Of a DNA stretch of 46,793 nt, positions 19,937 to 27,858 are shown piece after piece. Each line of letters starts with the position of its first letter. The stretch's first letter is position 1. The notes beneath the pieces were generated by a model. The model searched no databases. It saw only the letters and a program-made list of their open reading frames with translations, and was not told where the DNA came from. The stretch comes from Parvibaculum sp. GTDB taxonomy: Bacteria > Pseudomonadota > Alphaproteobacteria > Parvibaculales > Parvibaculaceae. The position numbers and the translations under genes are program-made. Location of the stretch: assembly GCF_030694575.1 (NCBI RefSeq), contig NZ_JAUYUS010000097.1, positions 1 through 46,793 of the forward strand, written 5' to 3'.

Positions 19937-20949
19937 AGCGGATTTTTGCCGGCACGCTGACGCTTATTGTGCTGGCGCTTGCGGTAATCGTTATTTCGGT
20001 CGTGCGTTTCGATGTGCCGCGTGAGGAATTGATCGGCAAGTATGCGACGGAAGCATCGCAATTCGTCACGCTGCCGGGGGGCGGTAGCGTGCATGTGCGT
20101 GACGAAGGCAACAGGCAAGGACCGGCGCTCGTCCTGGTTCACGGCTCCAATGCCTCGCTCCACACGTGGGAACCGTGGGTTGCGGACCTCGGCGACACCT
20201 ATCGCATCGTCAGCATGGATCTGCCGGGCCACGGTCTTACCGGGCGGATACCGGGCGACGATTACTCGCGCGAGGGCATGACGCAGACCGTCCATGAACT
20301 GACGGAGATACTGGGCGTCGACCGTTTCGCCATCGCCGGCAATTCGATGGGCGGCGGCGTCGCGGCCCTTTATGCGCTGGAGCATCCGGACCGCGTCTCG
20401 GCCCTCATTCTCGTCGACGCGGCGGGGATCCCCGTCGAGCGCAATGACGGCGAAGTGCCGCTTGCCTTCCGTATCGCGCGCATGCCCGTCATCAGCAACG
20501 CGATGCGCTACGTGCTGCCGCGTTCTCTGGTGGAAGAAGGCGTGCGCAAGGTCTTTGTCGACCAGTCGAAGGTCACCGACGAGATGGTCGCGCGCTATTT
20601 CGATCTGTCGCTTCATGAAGGCAACCGCGATGCGACGCGGATGCGCTTCGCGAGCTATGCGACGCGGGATGAGGAAGCCTTTGCCGTCCGGCTCGGCGAG
20701 CTAAAGATGCCGACGCTGATCCTGTGGGGCGACAAGGATGGCCTTATCCCTGTCTCCGCGGCGCATGAGTTCAAGGCCCGCATCCCCCAGGCAGAGCTCG
20801 TCATCTTCGAGAATGTCGGCCATGTGCCGATGGAGGAAGTGGCAGGGGAGAGCTCGGCGGCGGTTCGCGATTTCCTTACCCGCGCGCTCGCCGAAGTGTC
20901 CGGACCCCCGGACGGGATGGCGGCGGCCGGGGCCGCTATAGAGGAATAG
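19930..20949 (+). CDS. Membrane-anchored alpha/beta hydrolase
   Basis: A 339-residue alpha/beta-hydrolase. Residues 5-26 (IFAGTLTLIVLALAVIVISV) form an uncleaved membrane anchor. The oxyanion motif is LVHGSNAS, the nucleophile is in AGNSMGGG, the acid in LWGDKDGLIP, and the catalytic His in NVGHVPMEE, so the triad is complete. It resembles haloalkane or epoxide-hydrolase-type enzymes, but residues that would prove this are not clear. It overlaps the HemY-like stop by seven bases and so is translationally tied to the heme block, an addition not usual for that operon. Confidence 0.9.
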   Translation: MVKRIFAGTLTLIVLALAVIVISVVRFDVPREELIGKYATEASQFVTLPGGGSVHVRDEGNRQGPALVLVHGSNASLHTWEPWVADLGDTYRIVSMDLPGHGLTGRIPGDDYSREGMTQTVHELTEILGVDRFAIAGNSMGGGVAALYALEHPDRVSALILVDAAGIPVERNDGEVPLAFRIARMPVISNAMRYVLPRSLVEEGVRKVFVDQSKVTDEMVARYFDLSLHEGNRDATRMRFASYATRDEEAFAVRLGELKMPTLILWGDKDGLIPVSAAHEFKARIPQAELVIFENVGHVPMEEVAGESSAAVRDFLTRALAEVSGPPDGMAAAGAAIEE

Positions 20950-21025
20950 AAGGGCAGTTTCGCGCCGGGCCCTGCTTCTCCCTGTTGCCAAAGACGGCGG
21001 GGCGGGGTATCTGAGGGCCCTCGCA

Positions 21026-21047
21026 GACCGGCATTTTCCCGCCGGTC
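21026..21047. other. Hairpin GACCGGC..GCCGGTC before tRNA-Thr
   Basis: 7-bp perfect arms around ATTTTCCC, five bases before the tRNA. No T-run follows, so it is a poor terminator. It may act in tRNA precursor processing or as a weak barrier after the hydrolase. Confidence 0.35.
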
Positions 21048-21051
21048 CGGC

Positions 21052-21127
21052 GCCGCTTTAGCTCAGTTGGTAGAGCACCTCATTCGTAATGAGGGGGTCG
21101 GGTGTTCGAGTCACCCAAGCGGCACCA
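21052..21127 (+). tRNA. tRNA-Thr (CGT anticodon)
   Basis: 76 nt with encoded CCA (21125-21127). Acceptor stem is GCCGCTT/AAGCGGC. The D-loop reads TAGCTCAGTTGGTAGAGCA, the anticodon stem CCTCA/TGAGG with loop TTCGTAA (anticodon CGT), and the T-loop GTTCGAGTC. It reads ACG codons, frequent in this GC-rich genome. No integrase or repeated 3' end nearby, so it is not serving as an attachment site here. Confidence 0.97.
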
Positions 21128-21232
21128 CTTTTCCGCTCTCTTCTTCGCATTACTGTCATATCGCCCTAGATTTGTGTGGCTGCCCGGACCCGGAGCCGCG
21201 CACCTGCATTTCCGACAGCGAGGCCCAGACAA

Positions 21233-22660
21233 ATGAGCGACACATCTTCCGACCGCAAGTACACGCGTTTCAGCGGCCGCATGGTCATGGTCGGGTTCGG
21301 CAGTATCGGGCAGGGCGTTCTGCCGCTCCTGCTGCGTCATGTCGATGTGTCGCCGAGCCAGATTTCGATTGTGACGGCGGACGGTGCGGGCCAGGCGGAA
21401 GCGGAAGAGTATGGCGTCCGGTTCACGGTCACGCCTCTTCGCAAGGGCAATTACCTGTCCATTCTCGACCCGATGCTTTCGGAGGGTGACTTTCTCATCA
21501 ACCTGTCGGTCGATGTGTCGAGCGTTGCGCTCGCCGAGTTCTGCCGTTCCAAGGGTGCGCTCTATCTCGACACCTGCATCGAGCCGTGGAGCGGGCAATA
21601 TACGGACGCGTCGCGTTCGCCTTCACAGCGGTCGAATTATGCACTCCGCCAGAGCGCGCTGGCTCTCCGGGAGAAATACCCGGACGGACCGACTGCGATT
21701 TTTACCCATGGTGCCAATCCCGGTCTCGTCTCGCATTTCGTCAAGCAGGCGCTGCTCGATATCGCGAAGGATACCGGCGTCGAGGCGGCCAAGCCCCGGA
21801 GCCGCGAGGAATGGGCGCACTTGTCCCAACGGCTCGGCATCAAGGTCATTCACATCGCCGAACGCGACACGCAGGTGTCGCCGATACCGAAAGCCACCGG
21901 CGAGTTCGTCAACACCTGGTCGGTCGACGGGTTCGTCGGCGAGGGCAGTCAGCCGGCCGAGCTTGGCTGGGGCACGCATGAGCGGCATTTCCCGCCGGAC
22001 GGGCAGGGGCATACGACAGGCTCGGGCTGCGCAATCTTTCTTGCGCGGCCGGGGGCGTCCACGCGAGTGAGAAGCTGGACGCCGAATGAAGGCCCCTATC
22101 ACGGCTTTCTCATCACGCATGGCGAAGCGATCTCGCTTGCCGACTACCTCACCGTGCGAGACGGCGAAACCGTGAAATGCCGTCCGACCGTGCACTACGC
22201 CTACCACCCCTGCAACGTCGCCGTCCTTTCGCTGCACGAGCTTGCCGGCAAGAACTGGCAGATACAGAAGGCGAAGCGGCTGATGATGGACGAGATCAGC
22301 GAAGGCATGGATGAGCTTGGCGTGCTGCTGATGGGACACGCCAAGGGCGCCTACTGGTATGGCTCGCAGCTCACGATCGACGAGGCGCGCCGCCTGGCGC
22401 CGCACAACAACGCGACGAGCCTTCAGGTGACGGTTTCCGTTCTCTCCGGTGTGATCTGGGCGATCGAGAACCCGGATCGCTGGGTGACGGAACCGGAAGA
22501 AATGGATTTCGAACGCATTCTCGAAATCGCCCGGCCCTATCTGGGCACCATGACGGGCGTCTATAGCGACTGGACGCCGCTTCTCGACAGGGGTCTTTTG
22601 TTCAAGGAGGACCTGGACGAAGACGATCCCTGGCAGTTCAAGAATTTCCGGGTGGTGTAA
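21233..22660 (+). CDS. hss: Homospermidine synthase
   Basis: A 475-residue NAD-dependent homospermidine synthase of the alphaproteobacterial type. It condenses two putrescines (or putrescine and spermidine) to sym-homospermidine, a main polyamine of this class. The Rossmann motif VMVGFGSIGQGVL is at residues 18-30. TDASRSPSQRSNYALRQSAL, THGANPGLVSHFVKQAL and WGTHERHFPPDG are typical stretches. Start at ATG 21233 is chosen from the family N-terminus; the longer frame reads back towards the tRNA. It ends before a hairpin (22678-22709). Confidence 0.95.
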   Translation: MSDTSSDRKYTRFSGRMVMVGFGSIGQGVLPLLLRHVDVSPSQISIVTADGAGQAEAEEYGVRFTVTPLRKGNYLSILDPMLSEGDFLINLSVDVSSVALAEFCRSKGALYLDTCIEPWSGQYTDASRSPSQRSNYALRQSALALREKYPDGPTAIFTHGANPGLVSHFVKQALLDIAKDTGVEAAKPRSREEWAHLSQRLGIKVIHIAERDTQVSPIPKATGEFVNTWSVDGFVGEGSQPAELGWGTHERHFPPDGQGHTTGSGCAIFLARPGASTRVRSWTPNEGPYHGFLITHGEAISLADYLTVRDGETVKCRPTVHYAYHPCNVAVLSLHELAGKNWQIQKAKRLMMDEISEGMDELGVLLMGHAKGAYWYGSQLTIDEARRLAPHNNATSLQVTVSVLSGVIWAIENPDRWVTEPEEMDFERILEIARPYLGTMTGVYSDWTPLLDRGLLFKEDLDEDDPWQFKNFRVV

Positions 22661-22677
22661 GGCGGGGTGAAACAGAA

Positions 22678-22709
22678 AAGGCCGCCCCCTCGTACAAAGG
22701 GACGGCCTT
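22678..22709 (-). terminator. Hairpin terminator, best oriented on the minus strand
   Basis: AAGGCCGCCCC pairs with GGGACGGCCTT over ten of eleven positions. On the minus strand the stem is followed by TTTTCTGTTT, a usable T-run for the YRG-repeat gene ending at 22788. On the plus strand it may also stop hss, 18 bases downstream of its stop codon. Confidence 0.7.
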
Positions 22710-22787
22710 CCTGCCTATCGGGACCTGCGCGCCGAGTTCTCGTTTGGGGAAGGCAACCCTCAGACGGTGGCAGGTGCGCAGTTTCCG

Positions 22788-22964
22788 TCAGTCGTGCTGC
22801 GGAATGCCCCGGTAGCGCATATCGGTGTGGCTGGCGCGCGGCTTGTCGTGATGTGCAAGCGCCGAGTTGTAGGTCGCGCCGCGATAATTGAGCGTCGTGT
22901 CGCGCGTCCTGGCGGGGTGCTTGTCGCCGTGATGGGCAACGCCCCTGTAGGTGAGATCGGTCAT
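22788..22964 (-). CDS. YRG-repeat micro-protein (58 aa, DUF4278-like)
   Basis: A 58-residue protein with three copies of a Y-R-G unit: LTYRGVAHH (4-12), LNYRGATYN (25-33) and MRYRGIPQH (49-57), separated by H-H-x-D-K linkers. This resembles DUF4278 proteins, which carry YRG-x-x-Y units. GGGAGG lies five bases before the ATG, and a promoter (23000-23028) and terminator (22678-22709) frame it, so it is a complete gene. It is rich in His, Arg and Asp; nucleic-acid or metal contacts can be imagined but are not shown. It is divergent from the RHH-PII gene. Confidence 0.75.
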   Translation of the reverse strand: MTDLTYRGVAHHGDKHPARTRDTTLNYRGATYNSALAHHDKPRASHTDMRYRGIPQHD

Positions 22965-22999
22965 GGATGCCTCCCGTGATTGGTCCTGTCTTGCCGCTT

Positions 23000-23028
23000 A
23001 ATATGAGTAAGATGTGTAAGTTTGTCAA
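23000..23028 (-). promoter_or_regulatory. Sigma-70-type promoter for the YRG-repeat gene
   Basis: On the minus strand, TTGACA (23023-23028) is followed by 17 bases and CATATT (23000-23005). It lies 36 bases upstream of the ATG at 22964. Confidence 0.6.
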
Positions 23029-23054
23029 TAAGCTCATATGGAGCAATTACACAT
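23001..23054. promoter_or_regulatory. Interlaced inverted repeats in the YRG / RHH-PII divergent region
   Basis: Two repeat pairs interlock: ATATGAG (23001-23007) with CTCATAT (23033-23039), and ATGTGTAA (23012-23019) with TTACACAT (23047-23054). All arms are perfect. They cover the -10 and -35 boxes of the minus-strand promoter. Short half-sites in two orientations suit a ribbon-helix-helix protein, and the gene downstream (23174) encodes one. Autoregulation is inferred. Confidence 0.5.
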
Positions 23055-23173
23055 TCTTTGGACAGGACTAAGGGCGGCTGTTACAAAGACTCAATATCCT
23101 CAGGTTTTCCGGCATTTTTCCTGCCTTGCGCGGGCGCCGGGTGCCGGAGTTGTTTGTGTGAGCGAGGGTGAAT

Positions 23174-23671
23174 ATGGAAAAACTCGATCAGCGAATCCAG
23201 CTTGTCGCCTCGGTTGAGTTCAACAACGTGGTCGACCGCTGGCGCCGGGAACAGGCGGATTTGCCGTCCCGCTCCGAGGCGATCCGTCGCCTCGTCCTTC
23301 ATGGCCTCGAATATGAGAAGAGCTTTCCGATGCGCATGATCACCGCGATTATCCGGCCTCACAAATACGAAGAATTGCGCGATGCACTGATCGCCCTCGG
23401 CATCGAGGGCATTACGGTCACCCAGGTTTCCGGCTTCGGCCGGCAGCGCGGCCAGACCGAGATCTATCGCGGCGCGGAATACAACGTCGCGGAAGTGCCG
23501 AAAGTCCGCATCGATGTCGCGGTCAGCGCGGCCCTCGCCGAAAAGGCCGTCCGCGAGATCGAGCGGGTGGCGAACACGGGCAAGATCGGCGACGGCAAGA
23601 TCTTCGTTCAGCCGCTGGAGCAGGTCATCCGCATCCGAACCGGCGAAACGAATGAAACCGCGCTCGGCTGA
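23174..23671 (+). CDS. Ribbon-helix-helix domain fused to a PII signalling protein
   Basis: A 165-residue protein in one uninterrupted frame. Residues 1-50 look like an RHH DNA-binding domain: strand RIQLVAS, helix VEFNNVVDRWRREQ, turn DLPSRS, helix EAIRRLVLHGLEYEKS. Residues 53-165 are a complete PII (GlnB/GlnK) domain beginning MRMITAIIRPHKYEELRDAL. The T-loop is GFGRQRGQTEIYRGAEYNV, with Tyr103 matching Tyr51, the uridylylation site; the C-terminal signature is TGKIGDGKIFV. ATG 23174 has GAGG six bases upstream. An internal ATG (23330) has only a weak AAGAG site, so separate translation of plain PII is possible. PII senses 2-oxoglutarate and ATP/ADP; joined to RHH it would be a nitrogen- or energy-responsive DNA-binding regulator. 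No amtB or glnA nearby. Confidence 0.85.
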   Translation: MEKLDQRIQLVASVEFNNVVDRWRREQADLPSRSEAIRRLVLHGLEYEKSFPMRMITAIIRPHKYEELRDALIALGIEGITVTQVSGFGRQRGQTEIYRGAEYNVAEVPKVRIDVAVSAALAEKAVREIERVANTGKIGDGKIFVQPLEQVIRIRTGETNETALG

Positions 23672-23677
23672 GACGTT

Positions 23678-24886
23678 CTAACCGGCTGCAGCACCGCTCG
23701 CGATCATCCGGTCGATTTCCGCTTCGCTGAAGCCGCAGCTCGCGAGAACGTCGCGGGTGTGCTCGCCGATCCCGGGCGCGCGCCGGGGAGCGGTTTTTTT
23801 CTCGCCCTTGATGGAAATAGGGCTGTCGACCGTGCGAAGGCCGTTCGCGCCCGCAATTTCGGGCAGCAATGCGTTCGCAGCGACTTGCCGGCATTCGAGA
23901 TGATCGCTCGGCTGGGCAATCGGGCCGAAGGTAATGCCGGCGGTCACGAAACGTTCGCGCCATTCCGGCCAGTCGGCGGTGACGAAAATATCTTCCAGCG
24001 ATTTCACGAGCTCGGCCGTGTTCGCCTTGCGCCCCTCGGGGGTTGCGAAACGCGGGTCGTCGAGCCATTCGGGGCGGCCGATGCATTGGACGAGCAATGG
24101 CCATTCGCGGGTGTAATTCAGCAGCGCCAGCATGAACCAGCGTCCGTCGCGGCACTTGTAGAGTTCGGTCAGGGCGCCGCGCTGGCCACGGCGAAGCCGC
24201 ACCGAGAAATCCGCGTCGCAGAGCACCGCCTGCATCCAGACACCGTTGGACCAGAGTCCGTTGGCGAGCAGCGACGTCGAAACGACACCGCCCTTACCGG
24301 TCTTTTCGCGCCGGTAGAGCCCGGTCATGATGGCGCCGAACAGCGCCACCGCGGTCGGGTGGTCGCCCATTCCGGGCACCGAAATGGCGGGCTCGATGTC
24401 GGGATTGGCGCGGACGCTGTCCATCAGGCCGGAGCGCGCCCAATAGGCCGTCGCGTCATAGCCGGTGCGGTCTTTTTCGGGGCCTTCTTCGCCGTAAGGT
24501 GTGAGCGAGGCGTAGACGATGCGTTCGTTGAGCGGCAGCACGTCCTCGGGCGCGAGCTTCAGCCTTTCGCGGATCGGGCCGGGGAAATTGGTAATGAAGA
24601 CATCTGCCTTGGCAATCAGAGCGTCGAGTACGGCGCGCGCGTCCGGGTGCTTCAGGTCGAGCGCCAGGCTCTCCTTGTTACGATTGTCCAGCATCCAGAA
24701 ATAGTCCTGCTCCGCAGGCGGCATGCCGGGTACGTGCATGAGCTGACGGTAGCTGTCGCCCGTCACCGGCGGCTCGATCTTGATAACCCGCGCGCCGAAA
24801 TCCGACATGATGGTCGCGGCGGCCGGGCCCGCGATAAAACTTGCGCAATCGATGACCAGCAGGTCCTCGAACATGCCTTTTCCCAT
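23678..24886 (-). CDS. CaiB/BaiF family CoA-transferase (class III)
   Basis: A 402-residue class III CoA-transferase. Features are the N-terminal LLVIDCASFIAGPAAATIMSD, DFGARVIKIEPP, NRNKESLALDL, the Asp nucleophile in GYDATAYWARSG, the glycine-rich GMGDHPTAVALFGAI and the C-terminal TRDVLASCGFSEAEI. GGGGAGGAA precedes the ATG. It differs clearly from the other member at 4763-6028, so it has a different substrate. It is convergent with the RHH-PII gene (gap of six bases) and divergent from the kinase gene. Confidence 0.92.
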   Translation of the reverse strand: MGKGMFEDLLVIDCASFIAGPAAATIMSDFGARVIKIEPPVTGDSYRQLMHVPGMPPAEQDYFWMLDNRNKESLALDLKHPDARAVLDALIAKADVFITNFPGPIRERLKLAPEDVLPLNERIVYASLTPYGEEGPEKDRTGYDATAYWARSGLMDSVRANPDIEPAISVPGMGDHPTAVALFGAIMTGLYRREKTGKGGVVSTSLLANGLWSNGVWMQAVLCDADFSVRLRRGQRGALTELYKCRDGRWFMLALLNYTREWPLLVQCIGRPEWLDDPRFATPEGRKANTAELVKSLEDIFVTADWPEWRERFVTAGITFGPIAQPSDHLECRQVAANALLPEIAGANGLRTVDSPISIKGEKKTAPRRAPGIGEHTRDVLASCGFSEAEIDRMIASGAAAG

Positions 24887-25243
24887 GACTTCCTCCCCTG
24901 TCCCGCCGGGCGGGCCTCTTTCTGTTCTTATGCGGGGAAGAATGATGCGCCGGGAGGCGCAAGTCGATAGGCATTTTTCGGCTGTGTGGCGGAAGCGGCG
25001 GCCTTTCCCCGGGGTTGGTGTACTGCTGCTTTCTGTTCATCTGTATACGGATATAACTGCCACCGGCCTCTTGTTGTCCGGAAACCCCTCGGATGCCTTG
25101 TGTGTTTCAGGGTTAACGGACGGCAAGAAATAGTCCCGGTTCGGGACGGTGCGGCGGCGCAATCTTCTCAAAACGGTAGTTTTCCCTAACGGCGCGTTTA
25201 CCCCGTCGCAACGAACCGGCGTCTATGCTGCGGCACAGGCATA
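24887..25243. other. Divergent intergenic stretch (CoA-transferase / kinase)
   Basis: 357 bases without a gene. Seen: an AT-rich patch with GTATAC and ATATAAC near 25042-25058, a hairpin GTCCCG-GTT-CGGGAC (25133-25147), and TTAACGG. No convincing promoter pair is named. Confidence 0.5.
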
Positions 25244-26140
25244 ATGCAGGCGGGGCAATCCGGCGCAATGTTCGGTCACAAGGCCACAAACCGGGGCCGC
25301 CAGAAATCTCTTCTGGCGGGGTACTCGACCAATCTGGGCGAACTCATGTCTCGCCAGAGGTCGGAGGCTGCCCTGCGTTCGGCGAAGATCGAAGCGGACA
25401 TGGCGAGCCGGACCAAGTCCGAGTTCCTTGCAAATATGAGCCACGAACTGCGGACGCCGCTGAACGCCATCATCGGCTTCTCGGAATTCATCCAGCACAT
25501 CGCCGCAAGCGGCAAGCCGTCGGACAAGACGGAAGAATATGCGACGCATATAGCCGGCGCGGGCCGCCATCTCCTCAACATCATTTCCGACATTCTCGAT
25601 ATCGCGAAAATCGAGAGCGGCACCTTTTCGCTCGTGACGGAACCCTATGATCTGCGCGAACTGATCGATGCTTGTACCGTGCTGATCGAACCGCGCATTC
25701 GCGAGAAGAAGCAGGTCCTTGAAATAAAGGCCGACGCGACGCTGCCCGAGGTGCCCGTCGATGTGCGCCGTATCAAGCAGGTGCTGATCAATCTCCTGTC
25801 CAATGCGCACAAGTTCACGGGCGAGGGCGGGCGCATTGTGCTCGTCGCCACGAGCACGCCCGATGGCGGCGTCACCATTGCCGTCGCCGACACCGGGATC
25901 GGCATGACCAAAGAGCAGATCGCCTATGCGATGACGCCCTTCGGCCAGGTGCAGGCCAGCTACGCCCGCGGCCACGAGGGCACGGGCCTCGGCCTTCCCA
26001 TTGCAGCGGCTCTCACGAAACTGCATGGCGGCGAATTTCAGATCTACAGCGAACCCGGCAAGGGCACGACCGTGTTCTTCACTCTTCCTTCCGCTCCGGT
26101 CAAAGGATCGTTTTCGCATTACCAGGAACTTCGTTCATGA
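25244..26140 (+). CDS. Soluble sensor histidine kinase (PleC/DivJ-like core)
   Basis: A 298-residue kinase with no membrane span and no PAS domain. A short basic N-terminus and coiled helix (about 30-58) lead to the HisKA domain. The H-box is FLANMSHELRTPLNAIIGFS (phospho-acceptor His67), followed by an N-box INLLSNAHKF, G1 DTGIGM, F-box PFGQV and G2 GTGLGLPI. It is closest in feel to the alphaproteobacterial PleC/DivJ/CckA group. Starts at 25244 or 25268 are both possible; neither has a strong ribosome site. It ends in ATGA, overlapping the HerA-like gene, and no response regulator is adjacent. Confidence 0.92.
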   Translation: MQAGQSGAMFGHKATNRGRQKSLLAGYSTNLGELMSRQRSEAALRSAKIEADMASRTKSEFLANMSHELRTPLNAIIGFSEFIQHIAASGKPSDKTEEYATHIAGAGRHLLNIISDILDIAKIESGTFSLVTEPYDLRELIDACTVLIEPRIREKKQVLEIKADATLPEVPVDVRRIKQVLINLLSNAHKFTGEGGRIVLVATSTPDGGVTIAVADTGIGMTKEQIAYAMTPFGQVQASYARGHEGTGLGLPIAAALTKLHGGEFQIYSEPGKGTTVFFTLPSAPVKGSFSHYQELRS

Positions 26141-27858
26141 GCACGCCCACAACGACCCCCAGCGTTCCGGCGCCGAGCCAGGCTGTCACCGAACCTGAAG
26201 CGCCGCCCTTCATCGAGCGCAGAGGAATGCCGGCAGCGCCGCCGAAGCGGATCGGGCATATCGTGTCGGTATCGGGTTCGCAGGCCATTGCCGTGCTTGA
26301 GCGCGAAGGCCCGGCGATCAGCAACGAGCCGCGAGTCGAGATCGGTCAGCTCGTGAAGGTGCCGACGCCGTCGGCAACGGTCGTGGGCCTCATCTCCGCC
26401 GTAAGCGCGCCCACGCCAGCCAGCGGCGGCGGCATGGAAGATGTTCGCCTTGTCGAAATCAATCTTGCCGGCGAAGTGGTTCCCGATCCGAAGGATGGGC
26501 GCTTGTCGTTTCGTCGCGGCGTGTCGCATCTGCCGACGCTTGGTGATGCCGTTCTACTTGCCGATCGTCACGATCTTACCCGCGTCTACACGCAGCCCAA
26601 TGTGACGACGATCGAAGTCGGTACGCTGTTCCAGGATCCGGCGGTACCCGCCCGCTTCCTGGTGGACGATCTTCTCGCCAAACATTTCATCGTCGTGGGC
26701 ACCACGGGATGCGGCAAATCCTGTGCGCTGACCGCCATCCTTCAGCGTGTACTCGATGCGCACAACCACGCGCATATCGTCGTGCTGGATGTGCACAACG
26801 AGTACCCGACCGCCTTCGGCGACCGCGCTGAACTTATCAATCCGAATAACCTTCACCTGCCGTTCTGGCTTCTCAATTTCCAGGAACTTTCAGCTGCCCT
26901 GACAAGCGGCGATGCCTATCATGAGGCCGAAGTCGAAATCCTGAGCGACGCCGTCGTCGCCGCGAAGCGCCGTTATTCCGACGCCTCCTCCAATCGTCAT
27001 ATTTCGCGACGGCCCGGCGAAGGCGGGGGCATGACGGTCGATGCGCCGACACCGTTCCGGCTGTCCGATGTGCTGGCCTTTCTCGACGAACAGCTCGGCA
27101 AGCTGGAACGCACGCAGAAGACGCTTCCTTATCGGCGGCTCAAGAGCCGCATCGAGACGCTTGCCAGCGATCAGCGCTACAGCTTCATGTTCGGCAGTCT
27201 GACCGTGCAGGATACGATGGCCGATATTCTTGGCCGCCTGTTCCGCGTGCCGAATGACGGCCGGCCGATTACCGTGATCGATCTTTCGACCGTGCCGCCG
27301 GAAATTCTCGATGTCGTGATCTCCGTGATCTCCCGTCTTGCCTTCGATCTGGCGGTGTGGAGCAAGGGAGGATTGCCGATGCTTCTCGTCTGCGAGGAGG
27401 CGCATCGCTACGCACCCGTGACTGCGGGAGAAGGCTTTGAACCGACGCTGCACGCGCTCTCGCGCATTGCCAAGGAGGGCCGGAAATACGGGCTCTCGCT
27501 TGCCCTCGTCACGCAGCGTCCGTCGGAGCTCGATACCACCATCCTATCCCAATGCAGCACTGTCATCGCCATGCGCCTGTCGACGGAACGCGACCAGCAG
27601 GTGATGCGCGCCAATACGCATGACGGCGCACTCGATCTTCTGGATTTCCTGCCGCTCCTGGGCGACAGGGAAGCGATCGTTCTCGGCCAGGGCGTCGGGA
27701 TGCCGATGCGCATTCGTTTTGCCGATATCGCTGAACGCGGCATTCCGCGCAATCTCAATAGCGGCTTCTCGCAGTCCTGGAGCCGGCCCAATCTCGACCG
27801 CGCGGGTCTGGAAGCGATTGTGTCGCGCTGGCGGCATGCGGGGCGCGAACGCGGCTGA
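26137..27858 (+). CDS. HerA-like ATPase (HAS-barrel plus FtsK/HerA core)
   Basis: A 573-residue bacterial HerA/DUF87 protein. A proline-rich N-terminal tail (1-35) precedes a HAS-barrel (GHIVSVSGSQAIAVLE, about 39-150). The Walker A box is GTTGCGKSCALT (about 188-199), Walker B is MLLVCEEAH (about 414-422) and the sensor/arginine region is LVTQRPSELD (about 458-467). HerA hexamers translocate DNA, usually with the nuclease NurA; no NurA-like gene is near. Its ATG lies inside the kinase gene's terminal ATGA, so the two are made together. The extra N-terminal tail and kinase linkage are unusual. Confidence 0.92.
   Translation: MSTPTTTPSVPAPSQAVTEPEAPPFIERRGMPAAPPKRIGHIVSVSGSQAIAVLEREGPAISNEPRVEIGQLVKVPTPSATVVGLISAVSAPTPASGGGMEDVRLVEINLAGEVVPDPKDGRLSFRRGVSHLPTLGDAVLLADRHDLTRVYTQPNVTTIEVGTLFQDPAVPARFLVDDLLAKHFIVVGTTGCGKSCALTAILQRVLDAHNHAHIVVLDVHNEYPTAFGDRAELINPNNLHLPFWLLNFQELSAALTSGDAYHEAEVEILSDAVVAAKRRYSDASSNRHISRRPGEGGGMTVDAPTPFRLSDVLAFLDEQLGKLERTQKTLPYRRLKSRIETLASDQRYSFMFGSLTVQDTMADILGRLFRVPNDGRPITVIDLSTVPPEILDVVISVISRLAFDLAVWSKGGLPMLLVCEEAHRYAPVTAGEGFEPTLHALSRIAKEGRKYGLSLALVTQRPSELDTTILSQCSTVIAMRLSTERDQQVMRANTHDGALDLLDFLPLLGDREAIVLGQGVGMPMRIRFADIAERGIPRNLNSGFSQSWSRPNLDRAGLEAIVSRWRHAGRERG

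Follow-up and report, generated by a model that had tools for sequence, protein, structure and literature searches.

The gene described here encodes a PII signal protein with a ribbon-helix-helix (RHH) domain at its N-terminus (RHH-PII): it is one conserved gene and not a product of chance, and we consider it likely that its protein is a one-component transcription factor derived from PII that senses 2-oxoglutarate/ATP, a reading for which there are no binding, ligand or expression data. The gene lies in a 46.8-kb stretch of Parvibaculum DNA (referred to below as the window) from a genome of 3.8 Mb, and the features of the window that bear on the argument are collected in Table 1.

Table 1. 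Features of the RHH-PII locus and its surroundings (positions within the window).
Feature	Position	Strand	Basis or remark
RHH-PII gene, 165 aa, ATG start, TGA stop	23174..23671	+	uninterrupted frame, conservation
Ribbon-helix-helix domain, residues 1-50	23174..23323	+	relatives, alignment, AlphaFold2
Full-length PII core, residues 53-165	23330..23668	+	Pfam, alignment to solved PII
Internal ATG, Met53 = PII Met1; possible internal start	23330..23332	+	ATG in 29/29 sequences
T-loop YRGAEY; Tyr103 = uridylylatable PII Tyr51	23465..23482	+	translation, alignment
58-aa DUF4278 (PF14105) gene, three YRG repeats	22788..22964	-	Pfam; divergent from RHH-PII
Putative operator of RHH-PII, two direct repeats, TGAGTAAga TGTGTAAgTT, at 9-bp spacing	23004..23022	+	conserved block, motif scans
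Third half-site, inverted TGTGTAA	23047..23053	-	motif scan
Sigma-70-like promoter of the DUF4278 gene, TTGACA-17-CATATT	23000..23028	-	sequence
tRNA	21052-21124		
Saccharopine-dehydrogenase-domain protein, looks like homospermidine synthase	21176-22660		flanking gene
CoA-transferase family III gene	23678-24886		flanking gene
HerA-type ATPase gene	26137-27858		flanking gene

A continuous frame of 165 residues had been claimed in an earlier note made from the sequence alone, and this claim holds: the frame translates without a stop, and all 165 codons are intact in 17/17 complete Parvibaculum loci read, which stem from 16 genomes (L033 duplicates L013) and contain 15 distinct coding sequences, with the RHH-PII protein of genome G013 being 100% identical to that of the window. 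The conserved start is the ATG at 23174, in L007 the sole start downstream of an in-frame stop. Of the outcomes that the note had named as speaking against such a fusion, two were checked, namely orthologues that all begin at the internal methionine and an upstream stretch without protein-level selection, and neither was encountered. In the Parvibaculum loci the variable columns of codons 1–52 are distributed 12/6/43 over codon positions 1/2/3, with 43 of the 52 third positions varying, and comparison of 12 pairs gave dN/dS values of 0.00–0.16 for the RHH part (dN 0.00–0.18, dS about 0.8–1.5); RHH-PII is likewise intact and under purifying selection in a second clade, for which 3 pairs were compared. 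Variation that falls mostly on third positions, together with low dN, shows that the N-terminal part is translated in fusion with PII and that selection acts on it at the protein level.

The RHH outline that had been noticed in the first 50 residues is supported by relatives, although the Pfam score of the protein itself remains below the cut-off: the N-terminal part alone reaches 15.4–16 bits against the 20.5 required for RHH_1 (PF01402), a match at E ≤1 was obtained for 6/13 RHH-PII members, and an NCBIfam scan of the RHH part matched only 1/13 (E 0.099). The N-terminal part is 43–59% identical to short stand-alone proteins on viral contigs, and the ten RHH relatives that were scanned all match RHH_1 weakly, with three of them above the cut-off (the stand-alone L211 and the RHH-YfbU fusions L215 and L199); on these two grounds we accept its homology to recognised RHH proteins. 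AlphaFold2, applied to the RHH domain alone in line with the suggestion of the earlier note that the structure be predicted, returned an extended N-terminus followed by helices 14–25 and 33–50 (pLDDT 88.8), with no strand in the monomer; the full-length model was only fair (66.8), and a fold search with it retrieves PII structures. A fold search of the PDB with the RHH model gave no significant match (best 6kyt, a MazEF complex, with E 1.4 and Z 3.6; 7vp7 with Z 3.9), and a search by sequence for solved RHH relatives found none at a useful E-value. Residues 5–13 (DQRIQLVAS) are invariant in 13 aligned sequences from both clades and are expected to form the DNA-contacting strand. RHH-YfbU proteins and short phage RHH proteins share the same RHH type (WRReQxDLPSRSEAIRRL) but lack the PII core; fusions of this domain to YfbU were seen at L199 1332–2117, in Parvibaculum genome G009, and at L215 202–945, on a viral contig.

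The remainder of the protein is, as had been asserted, a full-length PII: residues 53–158 match the full Pfam P-II profile (PF00543, positions 1–102) with 97 bits against a cut-off of 25, and residues 53–164 align to residues 1–112 of solved PII proteins, so that Met53 corresponds to PII Met1 and Tyr103 to PII Tyr51. In PII numbering, G37, R38, Q39, G41, K58, G87-D88-G89-K90, R101 and R103, which we take to be the 2-oxoglutarate/ATP residues, are invariant in 13 aligned sequences from both clades; Tyr51 and the YRGAEY motif are kept in nearly all sequences, with the A beside the tyrosine replaced by R or S in a few. RHH-PII thus has the full-length core, the T-loop motif with Tyr51 and the ATP/2-oxoglutarate residues in common with PII signal proteins (GlnB/GlnK; PF00543), but differs from these in its N-terminal RHH domain, in forming its own subfamily and in falling below both NCBIfam GlnB/GlnK equivalog cut-offs (NF008111, NF007946: 128.7 vs 202 and 144.4 vs 181 bits). 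The base of the T-loop reads EVPK in RHH-PII as opposed to FLPK in ordinary PII, which suggests changed partners. Two ordinary PII genes are present in the genome of the window besides RHH-PII, and one in 15/18 genomes of the second clade; hence a plain PII product need not derive from the RHH-PII gene. RHH-PII was the sole PII found in three genomes of the second clade (G420, G427 and G428), the first of them 96% complete.

The earlier note had also proposed a search for conserved RHH-PII architecture, and this revealed it in two alphaproteobacterial orders. In the order of the window it occurs in 17/40 genomes, all belonging to the genus of the window (17/27), with the copy in G005 split at contig ends; in a sample of 385 genomes of the class it was present in five, the window's own and four of family f49. 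The order of f49, small AT-rich alphaproteobacteria with genomes of 0.9–1.4 Mb (GC 0.30–0.37 at four loci), makes up the second clade: RHH-PII was found in 14 of its 18 genomes, including 6/6 near-complete ones, and is 60–64% identical to that of the window over seven aligned sequences. A tree of 53 PII cores unites both RHH-PII groups (98/99) and separates them from 38 ordinary PII proteins, among which are both from the genome of the window as well as those of f49. By this phylogeny the two clades would represent one PII subfamily distinct from the ordinary PII sampled, with the qualification that the tree program warns of long branches meeting.

Beyond these two orders no further example was identified, within the limits of each search. 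Apparent N-terminal extensions in 12 other tblastn matches were rejected as due to chance, the aligned stretches being non-coding or interrupted by stops; the scan of genome contigs listed 80 loci out of at least that many, and only L033 among those listed was RHH-PII, with phyla beyond Alphaproteobacteria not systematically covered; and 123 plasmid records match the RHH-PII query, where none of the 15 listed spans the RHH part fully. Among the best 10 of 15 phage-labelled records, MT835884 spans residues 1–164 but was dismissed as an ammonium-transporter-PII frame: in this record (L198), labelled as a bacteriophage from human faeces, the end of an ammonium transporter is joined to PII in one frame. 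A literature search at the level of listings, including the combination of "nitrogen regulatory protein P-II" with "ribbon-helix-helix", found no RHH-PII fusion.

RHH-PII has a constant neighbour in Parvibaculum, the small DUF4278 protein, which scores 46.5 bits against a Pfam cut-off of 25.3 over residues 3–54 only. Within the order of the window DUF4278 occurs in exactly the 17/40 genomes that have RHH-PII and in 0/23 others, on the same contig every time, and the two genes are divergent in 17/17 loci read. In the f49 order a YRG/DUF4278-like gene lies upstream of RHH-PII in the same direction in 10/14 loci, with a remnant in 1/14 and none in 3/14; the Pfam model recognises DUF4278 in only 3/18 genomes of this order (E ≤0.05), so that most of these YRG genes were called by motif and position. 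DUF4278 without RHH-PII was met in three f121 genomes of the class sample: at their loci (L145, L146, L147) a stand-alone 60-aa DUF4278-like protein with a YRG triplet stands near hemF-like genes, and the class scan did not find RHH-PII there. The cyanobacterial GS inactivating factor IF17 has DUF4278 at its N-terminus, a region it does not need in order to function, and DUF4278 genes carry glutamine riboswitches (PMC6316151); gifB has been located by means of DUF4278 (PMC11288750). GS inhibition by IF7 and IF17 is ascribed to an IF7-like C-terminal part. The idea of a glutamine riboswitch at the DUF4278 gene was rejected, as Rfam scans of window positions 20900–25100 and of four loci showed none. 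That the DUF4278 protein acts on GS is an inference we regard as doubtful at present. There is a likeness between the PII T-loop YRGAEY and the YRG repeats in DUF4278 proteins (YRGATY, YRGIKY; window 22788–22964, L113, L114, L145–L147), and that these repeats mimic the T-loop is no more than a loose idea.

The 209-bp region between the divergent genes contains a conserved block in 17/17 loci, represented in the window by TGAGTAAGATGTGTAAGTT at 23004–23022 together with the inverted TGTGTAA at 23047–23053, and TGAGTAAgaTGTGTAAgTT occupies the -35/-10 spacer of the DUF4278 promoter. The half-site TGTGTAA occurs in the window only at 23013–23019 and in the inverted third copy, a count of at least two that is also reached by 9/100 shuffles. 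An exact pattern derived from the Parvibaculum RHH-PII loci, TGHGTWANNTGTGTAASTT, has three matches in the 385 class genomes (the site in the window, the promoter of the YRG gene in f49 genome G379, and one unrelated place) as compared to two for the reversed control: the count alone therefore shows nothing, whereas the positions do. When up to 2 mismatches were allowed, the element was found at the locus in 6/6 RHH-PII-positive Parvibaculum genomes, with one further match in G013, and had no match in 4/4 RHH-PII-negative ones. In five f49 genomes, 2 mismatches gave no excess over the reversed control (19 vs 17 matches), but the matches with at most 1 mismatch, 5/5, all lie at the RHH-PII/YRG locus or else in the interval from glnB to the GS gene.

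The latter position was pursued with a matrix to which only Parvibaculum contributed, with 7 distinct sites, and which was run on the glnB/GS loci of the 15 f49-order genomes that have an ordinary PII; judged by solved relatives, the GS gene of this order is of the GSII type. The best match fell at the GS promoter region, before GS or before the glnB-GS pair, in 15/15 loci: in the eight genomes with a glnB-GS gap of 177–202 bp the site lies 130–138 bp before GS, and in the seven with a gap of 28–43 bp it is on the other strand, 75–76 bp before glnB. Scores range from 10.5 (G426) to 22.0; against 300 Markov controls, 14/15 loci exceed their 95% level (14.1) and 10/15 their maximum (19.6). The reverse matrix, made from GS sites only, ranks position 23004 first in the whole window with a score of 20.8, followed by 11.2 for an overlapping place and then 9.0. 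As the GS loci are related, the 15 amount to about two independent arrangements. No clear site was detected at L148, L150 and L151, RHH-PII loci without a YRG gene, the YRG site of L154 ranked only third in 16 kb, and no site was found at the Parvibaculum plain-PII loci (L002, L003, L193–L197). Where the site precedes glnB, it is followed in 7/7 loci by TTTGGCAYAAATTTTGCTT, which resembles what we take to be the sigma-54 promoter consensus. A TTTAAGGGCTAGTATTTTTT-like block is conserved between the putative operator and GS in 8/8 loci (L160, L161, L170, L188–L192); Rfam matched no family in the two that were scanned, L160 and L170.

PII proteins normally act through protein contact, and the earlier note had inferred that this one could be a one-component metabolic transcription regulator. 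Without binding data, the inference gains support from the presence of RHH-PII in two orders, from its co-occurrence with DUF4278 and from the tandem-repeat element at DUF4278 and glnB/GS. In the mechanism that we propose, paired N-terminal RHH domains would read TGTGTAA-type tandem repeats spaced 9 bp, and the PII core would sense the carbon/nitrogen state and thereby alter DNA affinity or spacing. Binding of the element by RHH-PII is inferred with considerable confidence, and a response to ligand appears probable. In Parvibaculum the site would be the DUF4278 promoter, where RNA polymerase could be occluded: repression is inferred from the position of the element in the promoter spacer, and we lean towards it without regarding it as secure. 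In the second clade RHH-PII would have a site at the YRG gene, where this is kept, and one before the glnB/GSII genes, for which the direction of regulation is left undecided. The circuit would parallel the cyanobacterial NtcA-gif-glnA system, provided that DUF4278 restrains GS. In a still more complete form, PII trimers linked by RHH dimers, for instance in a hexamer where three RHH pairs connect two trimers, would sense 2-oxoglutarate/ATP and sit on the 9-bp-spaced repeats at the promoters of DUF4278, as a small GS-regulating protein, and of glnB-GS, so that a single protein would provide the whole nitrogen circuit, in convergence with NtcA-gif-glnA; with DNA binding itself inferred, we offer this picture only tentatively and it may well prove wrong.

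The same observations can be read differently. If the RHH domain binds the element and the state of the PII core is set by GlnD, which would uridylylate Tyr51, or by another PII partner that docks onto it, RHH-PII would resemble the target of a two-component system and not itself be a metabolite sensor; the retention of Tyr51 with its motif would fit this, as would the fact that every contact surface of ordinary PII remains recognisable. We nevertheless think it unlikely, given that the residues taken to bind 2-oxoglutarate/ATP are likewise invariant and that the altered T-loop base points to other partners. Alternatively a different nitrogen regulator might bind the TGTGTAA element, with RHH-PII merely co-located and its RHH part serving in pairing or protein contact, and the element does indeed occur at GS promoter regions in G422, G423, G425 and G432, where RHH-PII was not found in genomes that are only 62–83% complete. 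Its strict association with RHH-PII among the Parvibaculum genomes runs counter to this, as does an invariant strand expected to touch DNA; moreover, direct repeats at regular intervals are a fitting target for RHH proteins, as in MetJ and omega, and we give this explanation little credence.

A further possibility concerns the start of the protein, with the upstream extension untranslated or rarely translated and plain PII from the ATG at 23330 as the working product. Codon 53 is ATG in every one of the 29 sequences examined (17 Parvibaculum loci and 12 of the 14 second-clade ones), with the neighbouring residues 49–52 varying, and the second clade has stretches rich in purines ahead of it. 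However, codons 1–52 are under the strong purifying selection described above and remain 64–100% identical to the window across the two orders, which leaves this explanation scarcely credible; additional initiation at 23330 alongside the long product is possible, being neither shown nor excluded.

Among known systems, the nickel repressor NikR combines an RHH with a ligand-binding domain and is alike in design, with N-terminal RHH domains on a core that senses a small molecule; the core of RHH-PII is however PII and not ACT-like, a trimer is expected and not a tetramer, and the ligand is another one. PII, RHH and RHH-joined sensors such as NikR are thus already known, and it is a DNA-binding PII that would be new in function. 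PII proteins are among the most widespread signal proteins: a DNA-binding member, if our reading is true, would allow a single chain both to sense metabolites and to control genes, and would pose a structural puzzle in combining a threefold core with a twofold DNA-binding domain. It would also provide an alphaproteobacterial counterpart to cyanobacterial GS control, and the little-studied DUF4278 family gains a link to nitrogen outside cyanobacteria. In cyanobacteria the 2-oxoglutarate-sensing regulator NtcA represses gifA and gifB from sites in their core promoters and activates glnA, so that its sites lie at the core promoters of GS inhibitors, gifB with DUF4278 among them, and upstream of the GS gene (PMC6316151). 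The circuit considered here differs in several respects: NtcA is of the CRP/FNR type and RHH-PII is a PII, the DUF4278 protein of the window does not extend past DUF4278, the GS of the second clade is GSII and not GSI, and the glutamine riboswitch was not found in the portion of the window and the four loci that were scanned. In the f49 order a TonB-type receptor gene adjoins the RHH-PII/YRG locus (L114, L148–L154), with a cobalamin riboswitch beside it at L114 2626–2801.
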